Notes under the pieces: model-generated
Told to the model about the DNA's origin: nothing
Seen by the model: only the letters and a program-made list of their open reading frames with translations
Databases searched by the model: none
Translations under genes and position numbers: made by a program
NCBI RefSeq assembly: GCF_900172325.1
Contig: NZ_FWFR01000001.1
Coordinates: 1,876,335 to 1,940,334 of the forward strand
From: Oceanibacterium hippocampi
Lineage (GTDB): Bacteria; Pseudomonadota; Alphaproteobacteria; Sneathiellales; Sneathiellaceae
Direction: 5' to 3'
Length of the DNA: 64,000 bases
In this document: positions 48,907 to 53,775 of the stretch, piece by piece
Numbering within the stretch: the first letter of the stretch is position 1
Layout of the letters: each line of letters opens with the position of its first letter

Positions 48907-50409
48907 CTACTTGCCGATCTGGATCCAGGTGGTCTTGAGCTGGCTGTATTTGTCGATCGCGTGCAGCGAGCGGTCGCGGCCGAAGCCTGACTGCTTGAAG
49001 CCGCCGAACGGGGTCGACATGTCGGCCATGTCGTAGCTGTTGACCCAGACCGTGCCGGCCCGGAGCCGGCGGGCGACCTTGTGCGCGGTCGTCACGTCGC
49101 GGGTCCAGACGCTGGCGGCGAGGCCGTAGACGCTGTCGTTGGCGATCGTCACCGCCTCCTCGACATCCTTGAAGGTGATGGTCGAAAGCACCGGCCCGAA
49201 AATCTCTTCCTGGGCGATCTTCATGTCGTTCTTCACGTTGTCGAAGATGGTCGGCGCGATGTAGTAGCCGCCGGTCTCGCCACGCGCGCGCTCGCCACCG
49301 ATGCGCAGCGCCGCGCCGCCCGACTTGCCGTCCTCGATATAGCGCATCACGCGATCGGTCTGGGTATCGTCGACCATCGCCCCCATGAAGGTCTTCGGGT
49401 CGAGCGGGTCGCCCGGCTGCAGGCGCTGGCCGAAGGCCACGACCTTCTCCAGGAACTCGTCCTTGATCTCCTCCTGGACGAGCAGGCGGGAGGCGGCGTT
49501 GCAGACCTCGCCCTGGTTGAAGAAGATGCCGACAGCCGAGGTCTTGGCGGCGGCGTCGAGGTCCGGGGCGTCGGCGAGCACGATGTTCGGCGACTTGCCG
49601 CCGCATTCCAGGCTGACCTGCTTCATGTTGCTTTCGCCGGAATAGCGCAGGAAGAACTTGCCGACCTCGGTCGAGCCGGTGAAGGCAATGGCGTCCACGT
49701 CCATGTGCCGGCCGAGCGCCTGCCCGGCGGTCTCGCCGAAGCCCGGCAGGACGTTCAGGACGCCGTCGGGAATGCCGGCCTCGGCAGCCAGTTCGGCGAT
49801 CCGGAGCGCCGTCAGCGGCGACTGCTCGGCCGGCTTGAGGATGACGCTGTTGCCGGCGGCGAGCGCCGGGCCGAGCTTCCACGAGGCCATCAGCAGCGGG
49901 AAGTTCCACGGCACGACGGCGGCGACGACGCCGACCGGCTCGCGGGTGATGAAGGCGACCGCGCTCGGATCGGTCGGCGCGATCTCGTCGTAGATCTTGT
50001 CGATCGCCTCGCCGTACCAGGCAATGCAGTTGGCGGCGCCGGGGATGTCGACCGTGGTCGAGAACTTGATCGGCTTGCCCATGTCGAGCGTCTCGAGCAG
50101 GGCGAGCTCGTCCTTGTGCGAGAGGATCAGGGCGGCGAATTTCTGCAGCACCTTCTTGCGCCGGGCCGGGGCCAGGCGCGACCAGTAACCGGCGTCGAAG
50201 GCGGCGCGGGCGGCGGCGACGGCGCGGTCGACATCGGCCGTGTCGCAGGCCGCGACCCGGGTCAGCACCTTGCCGTCGACCGGGCTCACGCAATCGAAGG
50301 TCTTGCCACTCGCGGCATCGACATATTGCCCGTTGATGAAGGCCTGGTTGCGGTAGGAGAGGCGGCCGGCCTGCTCCTTCCAGTCGTCAAGTGACAGCGC
50401 GGCGGACAT
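48907..50409 (-). CDS. Aldehyde dehydrogenase (PuuC/aminobutyraldehyde dehydrogenase-like)
   Basis: 500 residues from ATG 50409. SPVDGKVLTRVAACDTADVDRAV, PWNFPLLMASWKLGPALAAGNSVILKPAEQSP, LECGGKSPNIVLAD with catalytic Glu, FFNQGEVCNAASRLLVQ with catalytic Cys, and STPFGGFKQSGFGRDRSLHA. The pattern is close to PuuC, which oxidises gamma-aminobutyraldehyde-type substrates, so it might act downstream of putrescine, but the family is broad. The transposon begins 115 bases upstream of its start. Confidence 0.9.
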   Translation of the reverse strand: MSAALSLDDWKEQAGRLSYRNQAFINGQYVDAASGKTFDCVSPVDGKVLTRVAACDTADVDRAVAAARAAFDAGYWSRLAPARRKKVLQKFAALILSHKDELALLETLDMGKPIKFSTTVDIPGAANCIAWYGEAIDKIYDEIAPTDPSAVAFITREPVGVVAAVVPWNFPLLMASWKLGPALAAGNSVILKPAEQSPLTALRIAELAAEAGIPDGVLNVLPGFGETAGQALGRHMDVDAIAFTGSTEVGKFFLRYSGESNMKQVSLECGGKSPNIVLADAPDLDAAAKTSAVGIFFNQGEVCNAASRLLVQEEIKDEFLEKVVAFGQRLQPGDPLDPKTFMGAMVDDTQTDRVMRYIEDGKSGGAALRIGGERARGETGGYYIAPTIFDNVKNDMKIAQEEIFGPVLSTITFKDVEEAVTIANDSVYGLAASVWTRDVTTAHKVARRLRAGTVWVNSYDMADMSTPFGGFKQSGFGRDRSLHAIDKYSQLKTTWIQIGK

Positions 50410-50515
50410 GACGTGGTCTCCCGTCTCTGAACGTTGTGCATTTCGATCGATTGCCGGTGAGCTTAGCGCGGCCCGGAAGGACAATAAAGACGCCGTCGCG
50501 GGGCGCCGTCCGGGC

Positions 50516-50523
50516 AATAAAAA
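50516..50523. repeat. Left 8-bp target-site duplication
   Basis: AATAAAAA immediately before the left inverted repeat; the identical octamer follows the right inverted repeat at 53476-53483. Eight bases is the usual duplication of the IS1595 family. Confidence 0.9.
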
Positions 50524-50547
50524 GGCGATTATATACTTGACGAACCC
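50524..50547. repeat. Left terminal inverted repeat (IRL)
   Basis: Begins GGCGATTATATACTT and matches the reverse complement of 53452-53475 at 21 of 24 positions. Read outward (minus strand) it contains a perfect TATAAT (50528-50533) pointing to the aldehyde dehydrogenase gene, with a weak TCGACC 16 bases upstream of it. Confidence 0.9.
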
Positions 50548-50585
50548 ACGGTCGATCCCCATCTCTAAGGAGAAGGAGTTGACCC

Positions 50586-51512
50586 ATGAGCGTACTATCC
50601 AAGGCATACTTTCACGACGAGGCTGCGGCCTTCGCGAAGCTTGAGGAAATCGTCTGGCCGGATGGCCCTGTCTGCCCTCACTGCGGCGGCATGGAGCGGG
50701 CCTACGACCTGACCAAGACGCGCCTTGGATTGAAGAAGTGCGGTCATTGCCGGAAGCAGTTCACGGTACGGGTGGGCACGGTATTCGAGGCAAGCCACGT
50801 TCCGCTGCACAAGTGGTTCCAGGCGACCTTCCTGATGGTGTCGAGCAAGAAGGGCATCAGCGCCCACCAGCTCCACCGGGTTCTTGAGGTCACGTACAAG
50901 ACGGCGTGGTTCATGGCGCACCGTATTCGCGAGGCGATGCGCTCGGGTGATCTGTCCCCGTTCGGCATCGACGGCGGCGCGGTCGAGGTTGACGAGACGT
51001 TCATCGGCAACGACCGCACCATCAAGCCGAAGGGCCAGAAGAAGGGACGCGGCTTCCATCACAAGCACAAGGTACTGGCGCTGGTTGACCGGAACACCGG
51101 CAAGGCCCGGACGATGGTTGTTGACGATCTCAAGGCCACGACGTTGGCCCCGGTCGTTCGCGAGAACCTTGCCCGCGAAGCACGACTGATGACGGATGAG
51201 GCGTCCTACTACACCAAGGTCGGGCAGGAGTTTGCCGAGCACGGCGTGGTGCATCACAATCGCGGCGAGTATGGCCGTGGCGATGTCTACACAAACACCG
51301 TTGAAGGCTACTTCTCGATCTTCAAGCGCGGCATGAAGGGCGTCTACCAGCACTGCGGCAAGAAGCATCTGCACCGCTACGTGGCCGAGTTCGAGTTCCG
51401 CTACAACGAGCGCGACATCAGCGACGTGGAGCGAGCAGGCGAGGCATTGAAGGGCATCAGCGGCAAGAGGCTGACGTACAACCAACCTTGTGAAACACAA
51501 ATTGCTTCGTGA
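50586..51512 (+). CDS. IS1595-family (ISXO2-like) transposase
   Basis: 308 residues from an ATG with AAGGAGAAGGAG upstream. N-terminal zinc ribbon (C30-PH-C33, C52-GH-C55), then the ISXO2-like domain with D136 (VEVDETF), D204 (LMTDEASYY) and N237 (YTNTVEGYFSIFKRGMKG), matching the DD-N type active site of the family. The reading frame is intact, so the element may still be active. Confidence 0.95.
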   Translation: MSVLSKAYFHDEAAAFAKLEEIVWPDGPVCPHCGGMERAYDLTKTRLGLKKCGHCRKQFTVRVGTVFEASHVPLHKWFQATFLMVSSKKGISAHQLHRVLEVTYKTAWFMAHRIREAMRSGDLSPFGIDGGAVEVDETFIGNDRTIKPKGQKKGRGFHHKHKVLALVDRNTGKARTMVVDDLKATTLAPVVRENLAREARLMTDEASYYTKVGQEFAEHGVVHHNRGEYGRGDVYTNTVEGYFSIFKRGMKGVYQHCGKKHLHRYVAEFEFRYNERDISDVERAGEALKGISGKRLTYNQPCETQIAS

Positions 51513-51515
51513 AGA

Positions 51516-52313
51516 TTAGAGTTTCTTCCTATAATCGAGATACCCCCTTGGGCCGAACGGTTGGGTCGAACCCGACACCGCCACTGAATTGTGGCTAGGC
51601 CCTTGGGGACCCTTCGACAACTTGATATGCCAAATTTTAAAGTGCCGTTTGTCGATAGGGGATTCCTCAGTCAGTGATAGAAGGCACGCTCTCCGACGGA
51701 TATGGTCGGCCATTCTCTCTTTTGGGGAGTTGGCTCCGAGCCGCCCGTTAAGAGACGCACCTATCGCGCCGATAAGGATGTCCGAAATCCAGAAAACTGG
51801 CTCCTCACGATAATCGATATGATCGACCGAGAGGCATGGGGAGCAGTCTTTCCCAAAGCGAGCACGTCCCATTCCGTTAAGGTATTCGTTGAATTTTCCT
51901 AGATCGTGGCGGCTATTGCGGTTTGCGTAGAGATGGCGAATGCGACCACTCTTGCCCATGTTGCGCTTAAAGGCGAAGAGATGCTGGATAACAAATTTGT
52001 TGAATCCAAGTTCACTGTCGCCATCGTTAAAAGTGGCATGATCCGTATCTGATGTCTTGACAACAGCCGCGTGAAAATCAACGAGATGCTCTTTGTTGAA
52101 ATCGAAAAATTGATCTATGAGGCGCTCGTATCGAAGATAATTTCCTCGTCGAATGCGCGTCCATTTTAGTGCGTCTGGGAAATCTCCTTTAGCTGACATG
52201 GTGGCGGCGCGAAGATCTCTCGCGATAGGTGCTTTACAGAGCACACCGCCGATTACCACGTATCGCTCATTAATTGAGCTTTCGTCACTAAATGAAGCGT
52301 AACGGCAAAGCAT
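51516..52313 (-). CDS. DUF3800 domain-containing protein (transposon passenger)
   Basis: 265 residues from ATG 52313 (a TTG three codons earlier is possible). The DUF3800 pattern is present: FSDESSINERYVVIGGVLC at the start (D10, E11), KWTRIRR, LVDFHAAVV, RHLYANRNSRHD in the centre and the acidic SVDHIDYREEPVFWISDILIGAIG near the C-terminus. The family has an RNase H-like fold and is frequent near mobile and defence loci, but its biochemical role is unsettled. The DNA is much more AT-rich than the host. Divergent from the two tiny genes at 52325-52611. Confidence 0.85.
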   Translation of the reverse strand: MLCRYASFSDESSINERYVVIGGVLCKAPIARDLRAATMSAKGDFPDALKWTRIRRGNYLRYERLIDQFFDFNKEHLVDFHAAVVKTSDTDHATFNDGDSELGFNKFVIQHLFAFKRNMGKSGRIRHLYANRNSRHDLGKFNEYLNGMGRARFGKDCSPCLSVDHIDYREEPVFWISDILIGAIGASLNGRLGANSPKERMADHIRRRACLLSLTEESPIDKRHFKIWHIKLSKGPQGPSHNSVAVSGSTQPFGPRGYLDYRKKL

Positions 52314-52324
52314 CGGAGCCAAGG

Positions 52325-52477
52325 ATGAACAGCGACAAACGAGTACCTCAATCCGAAAAATTCAAAGAAGCCGCCCGTGAGGTCGAAGCCGACGATAGCG
52401 AGGCCGGGTTCGAGGAAAAGCTGAAACGGTTGGCGAAGGCTAAGTTGAAACCGAAGAAGGAGGTGCCGGACAAATGA
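52325..52477 (+). CDS. 50-residue charged protein (transposon passenger)
   Basis: Starts at ATG 52325 with GGAG six bases upstream; an in-frame ATG at 52292 would overlap the DUF3800 start. The product (MNSDKRVPQSEKFKEAAREV ... KKEVPDK) is rich in Lys, Glu and Asp with a single predicted amphipathic helix. The type, a short protein opening with NSDKRVPQSEKFKEAARE, seems widespread as an unnamed hypothetical. It sits 11 bases from the divergent DUF3800 gene, and its stop overlaps the next tiny gene. Confidence 0.75.
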   Translation: MNSDKRVPQSEKFKEAAREVEADDSEAGFEEKLKRLAKAKLKPKKEVPDK

Positions 52478-52611
52478 GACGATGGATTCTATTTTCTACG
52501 CCGGTCAACTGGGTTGCGCGGATTGGCGGTTGGATTATTGAGCAACGGTCCAAAGAGGTTCTCAGGATTGCCGGACTTGATGGTGTTGGAGCCAGTTCCA
52601 ACCACCAGTGA
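52474..52611 (+). CDS. 45-residue protein with hydrophobic N-terminus (transposon passenger)
   Basis: The ATG overlaps the stop of the preceding gene (ATGA) and is preceded by a strong AAGGAGG at 52457-52463. The peptide begins MRRWILFSTPVNWVARIGGW, a mostly hydrophobic segment with tryptophans that could associate with a membrane, and ends in a polar tail. The good ribosome site and coupling argue for real expression. The last 50 bases overlap the convergent gene at 52562-52906. Confidence 0.65.
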   Translation: MRRWILFSTPVNWVARIGGWIIEQRSKEVLRIAGLDGVGASSNHQ

Positions 52612-52906
52612 AAACATGTCCCGAGCCTGTGTAGGTCTCGCCAACCTCCAGGATTAAGAATGCGTCATCGCTGACGCTTTCGGTGCTCCCTTCTAACGCC
52701 ATCCGGATTTCTCTCGCCGATTTCTGAGAATTGGCAAAGAACCCAGCTAAACTCGTATCCTTAGATCTAAATGCCAGCAGGTAATCCTTGTTGGATAACC
52801 GCTCTATGACCACCTTGATGCCGGAGAATGCATCCGCTAGTTCAGCCAAGCTGGCGGTTTTGTGGATGGAAACGACGATCAGATAGGTTCTGGGTTCTGG
52901 ACTCAT
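52562..52906 (-). CDS. Small protein of unknown function, possibly SinR/Cas2-fold-like (transposon passenger)
   Basis: 114 residues. RTYLIVVSIHKTASLAELADAF, VIERLSNKDYLLAF, SAREIRMALEG and DDAFLILEVGETYTG form an alternating strand-helix-strand-strand pattern like the small ferredoxin-fold proteins annotated SinR-like or Cas2-like. The resemblance is to the pattern only; key Cas2 residues cannot be claimed, and no CRISPR array is present. AT-richer than the host. Confidence 0.55.
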   Translation of the reverse strand: MSPEPRTYLIVVSIHKTASLAELADAFSGIKVVIERLSNKDYLLAFRSKDTSLAGFFANSQKSAREIRMALEGSTESVSDDAFLILEVGETYTGSGHVFTGGWNWLQHHQVRQS

Positions 52907-52948
52907 TCTCCACCCGATAATGATGAAGTATATGTGTCGCGCCGAGGA

Positions 52949-53284
52949 TCAGGGCACGTCGCCTATCTTTTCGAATGCTACTTGAACGGGCTTGTTCATT
53001 ATCTTGATCTGCTGAGCCGATCCATCAGCGAACGTAGCCGGCCAAACTGCGGATAACTGCAACGATGTTCCCGCAGCAAGTTGATCACCGGTAACGAGTG
53101 TTGCGCCGCCCTGCGGGGCAGTAAGTGTTCCGGACAGGGCCATGTTCCCCCCGGATTCTGTATAGGTGCCGGTGTATCGGCCGTTCGATACATCAACACC
53201 GACGAACATTCCCTTACCAATGTAGACAGCTCCAAATCCCGTACCCGCCGAGCCGAGATATCGGATCGCGTACAAAGCGCTCAT
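52949..53284 (-). CDS. GrlR-like small beta-rich protein (transposon passenger)
   Basis: 111 residues from ATG 53284 with GGAGG four bases upstream; the frame is open further 5' but has no good site. MSALYAIRYLGSAGTGFGAVY, FVGVDVSNGRYTGTYTESGG and LSGTLTAPQGGATLV resemble the glycine-rich strands of GrlR-type proteins (LYAIRF..G.G.G, GxD...YxGTY). GrlR itself is a regulator in attaching-effacing bacteria; here the role is unknown. Confidence 0.6.
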   Translation of the reverse strand: MSALYAIRYLGSAGTGFGAVYIGKGMFVGVDVSNGRYTGTYTESGGNMALSGTLTAPQGGATLVTGDQLAAGTSLQLSAVWPATFADGSAQQIKIMNKPVQVAFEKIGDVP

Positions 53285-53305
53285 GTGACCTCCGGAGAAT
53301 ATGAA

Positions 53306-53470
53306 ATGTGCAAAGAGAAGAACGACGCTCAGACCAAAATCGAACGGCTCATCGCGGCGATGGACCGCCTCGCCCAAACCATAGAGGCGAGCACCGCACA
53401 CGATCACCAAAAGCTCGAACATTGTGACTCGAGCACAACCAAAGAGTCAATGGGTGCGGGAAGTATATAA
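53306..53470 (+). CDS. 54-residue helical protein ending inside the right inverted repeat (transposon passenger)
   Basis: Starts at ATG 53306 with GGAG eight bases upstream, 21 bases from the divergent GrlR-like gene. KEKNDAQTKIERLIAAMDRL and AQTIEASTAHDHQK suggest a helix or short coiled coil. The TAA stop (53468-53470) lies within the right terminal repeat, so the transposon end itself supplies the end of the gene. Confidence 0.6.
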   Translation: MCKEKNDAQTKIERLIAAMDRLAQTIEASTAHDHQKLEHCDSSTTKESMGAGSI

Positions 53471-53475
53471 TCGCC
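53452..53475. repeat. Right terminal inverted repeat (IRR)
   Basis: Ends AAGTATATAATCGCC, the perfect reverse complement of the first 15 bases of the left end; 21 of 24 positions match overall. It also contains an outward TATAAT (53466-53471) and the last codons of the 54-residue gene. Confidence 0.9.
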
Positions 53476-53483
53476 AATAAAAA
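53476..53483. repeat. Right 8-bp target-site duplication
   Basis: AATAAAAA, identical to 50516-50523. It belongs to the T-tract (minus strand) of the rpmG terminator. Confidence 0.9.
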
Positions 53484-53506
53484 AGGCCGCGATGAACGCG
53501 GCCTTT
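53479..53506 (-). terminator. Rho-independent terminator of rpmG
   Basis: On the minus strand, AAAGGCCGCG pairs with CGCGGCCTTT around a TTCAT loop, and the run continues as TTTTTTATT. It lies 24-50 bases after the rpmG stop. The transposon cut the T-tract, and the target duplication restored it. Confidence 0.85.
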
Positions 53507-53529
53507 GTCGATGCAGGATCAAGCGGTTG

Positions 53530-53697
53530 CTACTTGATCTTGGCTTCCTTGAACATCACGTGCTTGCGCGCGACCGGGTCGTATTTCTTGACCTCGAGCT
53601 TCTCGGTCAGAGTCCGAGGATTCTTCTTGGTCACGTAGAAATAGCCGGTGCCGGCACTGCTCACGAGCCTGATCTTCAGCGTGGTTGGCTTGGCCAT
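53530..53697 (-). CDS. rpmG: 50S ribosomal protein L33
   Basis: 55 residues, the normal L33 length: begins [20 protein letters not shown], then [20 protein letters not shown] and the conserved [14 protein letters not shown] end. No zinc-binding cysteines, so it is the C-minus form. It sits in the customary pleD-rpmG neighbourhood, here interrupted by an ALDH gene and the transposon. Confidence 0.96.
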
Positions 53698-53775
53698 CTT
53701 AAAAACTCCGGAATCCCTGGCGGCGCCGGTACGCCCGGCGGCGAGACGCGAAAGATACGGATGCGGCCCGCTTTG

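Follow-up and report, generated by a model that had tools for sequence, protein, structure and literature searches.

A conserved tiny protein accompanies the transposase of an IS1595-family transposon that carries a DUF3800-type gene

In Oceanibacterium hippocampi, a gene for a DUF3800-type protein stands head to head with a very short reading frame, into whose stop codon a second short frame is coupled. Is this a self-contained module, in which an RNase H-like enzyme is paired with tiny effector-regulator, toxin-antitoxin or anti-phage partners, as a preliminary description of the locus had proposed, or are its genes parts of something larger? We addressed this question in a stretch of 64,000 nucleotides (the window). 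The gene layout given in that description was confirmed: the DUF3800 gene occupies 51516–52313 on the minus strand, and its ATG at 52313 is separated by 11 bp from the divergent ATG at 52325 of a 50-residue frame (52325–52477, plus strand), here called SMALL. A 45-residue frame (52474–52611, plus strand) overlaps the stop of SMALL by ATGA and has an AAGGAGG upstream.

All of these frames lie inside an intact IS1595-family transposon of 2,952 bp (50524–53475, plus strand), and the earlier view of them as transposon cargo, for which no boundaries had been given, was thus substantiated with both ends. The element is bounded by 25-bp inverted repeats (50524–50548 and 53451–53475; family consensus GGCGATTATATACTTGACAAACCC) whose arms are 88% complementary, and it is flanked by an exact 8-bp repeat, AATAAAAA, at 50516–50523 and 53476–53483; an 8-bp target duplication is the expectation for IS1595. 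The transposase (308 residues, 50586–51512, plus strand) is intact and matches PF12762 (DDE_Tnp_IS1595, 4.6e-36), PF12760 (an N-terminal zinc ribbon, 3.2e-13) and the NCBIfam model NF033547 (transpos_IS1595, 4.2e-62), and residues D136, D204, N237 and E240 are invariant in the transposase alignment. A DDE transposase with a zinc ribbon, together with inverted repeats and an 8-bp duplication, places the element in the IS1595 family, and the host genome holds one copy of it. The inverted repeats of the window element contain a TATAAT facing outward, and the family consensus has in addition a TTGACA facing inward; an outward promoter and a -35 box for the transposase may possibly reside in these repeats. 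Passenger genes are known among IS1595 members; the family is the subject of ISfinder and of Siguier et al. (2009).

The recurrence of the genes within the element bears on which of them belong together. SMALL was found in 89 IS1595 elements, in all of them on the transposase strand and downstream of the transposase, and inverted repeats with a target duplication were found for 64 of these 89. It was present in 22 of the 59 loci of the first locus set (by an iterated profile) and in 66 of 80 loci that had been fetched by transposase only, while four loci (L047, L158, L161 and L162) have an apparent divergent SMALL variant immediately behind the transposase gene. When a profile was run against 385 genomes of the class, with the transposase left out of account, most of the loci recovered were those already found, and the nearest plasmid transposases have SMALL homologues beside quite different cargo. 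As a single query SMALL gave no match in plasmids or in other genomes of the host family, where the profile alone succeeds, and no family was found for it in Pfam, NCBIfam, PHROGs or PADLOC. Its pooled dN/dS is 0.25 over 19 independent pairs; judged by these substitutions, the protein is under purifying selection and well beyond a chance frame. AlphaFold2 predicts two helices, at residues 9–19 and 26–38, between unstructured charged tails (pLDDT 77.5), of which the C-terminal one is rich in lysine.

SMALL follows the transposase and not the cargo. Across 83 elements its identity correlates with that of the transposase (partial r 0.58, with 0 of 1000 permutations as high), whereas the partial correlation with cargo class is 0.05 (52 of 1000 permutations), and SMALL is concentrated in one clade of the transposase tree. 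Two unusual forms were also encountered: in L043 the C-terminus of SMALL is fused to a domain of about 100 residues, adjoining a PIN pair, and L097 contains a 1,042-bp derivative (1432–2473 of the oriented locus) with ends, target duplication and a truncated transposase, which retains SMALL and then a coupled hydrophobic open reading frame (ORF).

The cargo itself varies from element to element. Elements with ends found measure 1.0–4.3 kb (median 2.8 kb), and the usual cargo slot reaches from the stop of the transposase to the ribosome-binding site of SMALL. When cluster representatives were scanned with Pfam, the clusters comprised PIN-domain pairs (18 elements), PIN-like (5) and PIN_10 (4) proteins, SocA-like Panacea (7) and DUF1828 (5) proteins and an unnamed minus-strand family (9), with Schlafen AlbA_2 (2) and XRE-ImmA (1) as rarer cargo. 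DUF3800 is the cargo of 16 elements, L158 among them, and falls into three or more divergent groups. Plus-strand cargo often has its stop codon overlapped by SMALL; in a subset (L016, L019, L104, L142, L154 and L177), SMALL stands 18–31 bp after the transposase and is followed by opposite-strand cargo. Cargo of the DUF3800 type is encoded on the strand opposite SMALL, with start-to-start distances of 6–14 bp in the nine elements in which both starts are clear (that of the window, L106, L110, L137, L140, L156, L164, L168 and L172). The exception is L061, whose ends were not found and in which DUF3800 is convergent with SMALL; in L158 the SMALL variant sits between the transposase and DUF3800. 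Hence a DUF3800 gene facing the 50-residue protein is a recurrent arrangement, as anticipated. The check proposed in that description, a joint occurrence of all three genes outside this transposon, failed: related IS1595 elements are the sole setting in which DUF3800 and SMALL were seen together, and the 45-residue frame never recurs.

The DUF3800-type protein of the window may start at its ATG or possibly at a TTG at 52322, and its identity needs some qualification. It scores 17.3 bits against Pfam DUF3800 (PF12686; E 0.0082), below the gathering score of 21. We nevertheless retain the assignment because the protein matches the PADLOC model PDC-M04A (PDLC04353) at 9.7e-22, because homologues, L111 and L158 among them, exceed the Pfam cut-off, and because of its predicted fold; the same PDC-M04A model is matched by the homologues of elements L111, L155, L156 and L158. 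An AlphaFold2 model built from ten transposon-borne DUF3800 proteins (pLDDT 78, pTM 0.79) retrieves RNase HII/H2 by Foldseek (probability 1.00, E 2.3e-4) and aligns with RNase H2 in VIA-align over 161 residues (Z 12.0, 3.1 A), so that the RNase H-like enzyme of the preliminary description gains a predicted RNase HII fold. Acidic residues at D10, E11, E101 and D178 are present in nearly all homologues compared and are kept in the window protein, and residue 48, a Glu in 11 of 11 homologues compared, is Ala here. That the protein had been stripped of its catalytic residues was considered and rejected, since a better alignment retains all four of these acidic positions and replaces E48 alone. The predicted fold, of RNase H type, and the acidic residues that it retains accord with DUF3800 membership, with one conserved Glu changed to Ala, and the protein may be taken as a putative nuclease whose substrates would be RNA or RNA-DNA hybrids. 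The Ala at position 48 weighs against assuming that this copy is active, and we treat it only as a predicted nuclease. In the transposon-borne DUF3800 pairs compared, pN is well below a near-saturated pS. Pattern scanning of genome contigs with the protein returned no relative, whereas alignment of the transposase did retrieve relatives; sequence searches gave no solved structure for DUF3800 or the 50-residue protein, and no Rfam DUF3800 RNA motif was found up to E=1 within 50300–53700.

Of the two tiny proteins originally proposed, the 50-residue one is real and conserved, and the 45-residue one is considerably more doubtful. No homologue of the latter was found among 142 oriented related loci, its maximum 19-residue hydropathy (1.06) is not clearly membrane-like, and the Shine-Dalgarno-like AAGGAGG before it doubles as coding sequence for the Lys/Glu-rich tail of SMALL; for these three reasons we regard the frame as only putative. 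Coupling as such does occur. ORFs are coupled to the stop of SMALL in 25 of 87 cases vs 13.0+-2.7 when the downstream sequence is shuffled (0 of 300 shuffles), and 9 hydrophobic coupled ORFs were observed vs 0.7 in shuffles, an excess which indicates that some elements do possess a genuine third gene coupled to SMALL. The coupled ORFs are mostly unrelated to one another and that of the window is unlike the membrane-type ones, and the idea that the 45-residue frame represents a general feature of the family was rejected.

Two more frames occupy the right part of the window element. A 114-residue tail-region protein (52562–52906, minus strand) has a homologue at the same position and on the same strand in L108 (8.4e-13). 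A protein of about 111 residues (MSALYAIRYLGSAGTGFGAVYIG...; 52949–53284, minus strand) is encoded by an open frame; it matched no family in Pfam, NCBIfam, PHROGs or PADLOC, and we take it to be reminiscent of GrlR-type regulators. Near the right end of several other elements (L006, L042, L110, L114, L146 and L148) a protein of about 90 residues recurs, mostly on the minus strand, and the 114-residue protein of the window occupies the same place. The L042 copy of this tail protein corresponds to PHROG 1090, and the recurrent protein may have a ferredoxin fold of the Cas2/SinR type.

If SMALL were a partner of the cargo, it should accompany the same cargo where this occurs elsewhere. Where two-gene PIN modules occur independently of the transposons (L200, L201, L202, L204 and L205), no SMALL lay alongside. 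Strong PDC-M04A matches elsewhere in alphaproteobacteria lie mostly inside type I restriction loci, and those we inspected (L191, L192, L194 and L195) had no convincing SMALL alongside; one weak 37-residue match to the SMALL profile, more than 2 kb away in L191, was not counted. This absence disfavours SMALL as a partner of the cargo. PDC-M04A was next to PDC-M04B in both cases tested, L191 and L009, of which the latter is likewise a type I restriction locus; PDC-M04B was not found in the window element, whose 50-, 45-, 114- and 111-residue proteins were all unmatched. Two other loci, L093 and L095, keep SMALL next to the same cargo types with no transposase detected. They may be decayed elements, but since SMALL persists there with cargo, a function connected with the cargo retains some plausibility.

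We interpret the locus as an intact IS1595 transposon in which the transposase and SMALL form a backbone that serves the element, and DUF3800 is exchangeable nuclease cargo, and we give this reading a probability of about 60%. It draws on the ends and target duplication, on the conservation, strand, position and co-inheritance of SMALL with the transposase, on the variable cargo and on the absence of SMALL from cargo elsewhere. SMALL and the transposase remain together while the element diverges, and the cargo slot has different occupants in different elements, in this case a DUF3800/PDC-M04A protein of predicted RNase HII fold; this protein would be a nuclease that acts on RNA or on RNA-DNA hybrids, and could be defence-like or addiction-like cargo. 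SMALL would most likely assist or regulate transposition or the expression of the transposon's genes, perhaps while bound to the transposase or to the element ends. Since SMALL is constant with the transposase and DUF3800 is one of many cargoes, the pair does not behave as a self-contained toxin-antitoxin or anti-phage unit. Besides L093 and L095, two considerations weigh against the backbone role. SMALL is coupled to the cargo or abuts it and could have a role related to it, and physical linkage without joint function would also yield co-inheritance with the transposase.

The proximity of the two genes invites the reading that the DUF3800 nuclease has its cognate antitoxin or regulator in SMALL, with or without the 45-residue frame, the whole forming an addiction module. 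In several DUF3800 subfamilies the divergent starts are indeed only 6–14 bp apart, and such a pairing could also claim the frequent overlap of SMALL with the stop of plus-strand cargo and its place beside cargo in the two loci with no detected transposase. However, the type II toxin-antitoxin pattern is a toxin-specific partner, and one SMALL family is common to effectors as unrelated as PIN, Panacea, DUF1828 and Schlafen proteins, tracks the transposase, and is missing from DUF3800 and PIN modules elsewhere; the partner of PDC-M04A elsewhere is moreover PDC-M04B, a model that found no match among the proteins tested from the window element. The single effector-regulator or toxin-antitoxin module of the preliminary description is thus not supported by the distribution of SMALL, and we consider it quite improbable. 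A looser link to the cargo fares somewhat better and is still unlikely: SMALL might be a generic RNA- or DNA-binding factor that aids the expression of whichever effector fills the slot rather than transposition. Adjacency to cargo in nearly all elements, stop overlap in many and persistence near cargo in L093 and L095 are consistent with this, but in the six elements with SMALL 18–31 bp after the transposase the opposite-strand cargo lies beyond it, and homologous cargo elsewhere does without it.

That the DUF3800 gene and the tiny frames simply ride along in the element, serving no function under selection there, is very improbable. The dN/dS of SMALL reflects purifying selection, and DUF3800 recurs in 16 related elements and in three or more divergent groups with pN well below pS. 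What this explanation does account for is the lack of conservation of the 45-residue frame and the divergence of the window DUF3800, which misses one conserved Glu.

The interpretation of SMALL as part of the backbone gains from a comparison with the sister transposase clade. There, 27 elements (L044, L049, L051-L053, L055-L058, L060, L064-L067, L071, L073, L075, L076, L078, L081-L083, L089, L115, L118, L132 and L181) encode a tiny basic protein, consensus ..RRDELLRRLLKTPPQPRPKR.., that is unrelated to SMALL. It is mostly encoded on the strand opposite that of the transposase and was in no case accompanied by SMALL at a confident score, and a profile search of the class with this family returned mostly IS1595 loci again. 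A second tiny family in a sister clade supports the view that elements of this kind consistently require a tiny protein. It is conceivable, and we put it forward tentatively as somewhat less than an even chance, that SMALL is an undescribed functional component of an IS1595 lineage, that in sister clades two tiny charged proteins, unrelated to each other, answer one need, and that the elements are platforms which shuttle toxin-like and candidate-defence modules among alphaproteobacteria.

Short defence-like and toxin-like modules move often, and the elements that transport them are seldom observed with both of their ends. In the 64 complete elements, PIN, DUF3800, Panacea and DUF1828 modules take each other's place next to a tiny gene that stays constant, and the set therefore serves as a catalogue of candidate defence and toxin modules. 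For the biology of mobile elements it raises the question of what SMALL contributes to the IS1595 transposase.

The literature that we searched contains no description of an IS1595 element with a constant, co-inherited tiny protein and a slot for toxin- or defence-like cargo. DUF3800 proteins have been assigned an RNase H fold and reported beside Cas12a2 (PMC10910872), and they are reported in some type VI-F and V-A2 CRISPR loci (PMC12669027). The DUF3800 of the window shares the RNase H fold, in its case a predicted one, and the defence association with these proteins, but it stands alone in a transposon, without a CRISPR or TPR partner. In the candidate defence system PDC-M04 (PADLOC-DB 2.0.0) it corresponds to component A, which elsewhere lies inside type I restriction loci with component B alongside in the cases tested, whereas component B was not found in the window element. 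With RNase HII/RNase H2 it has in common the predicted fold and the N-terminal Asp-Glu pair, at about 12% identity. The element that carries it is like other IS1595 insertion sequences and transposons in its transposase domains, its inverted repeats and its 8-bp duplication.
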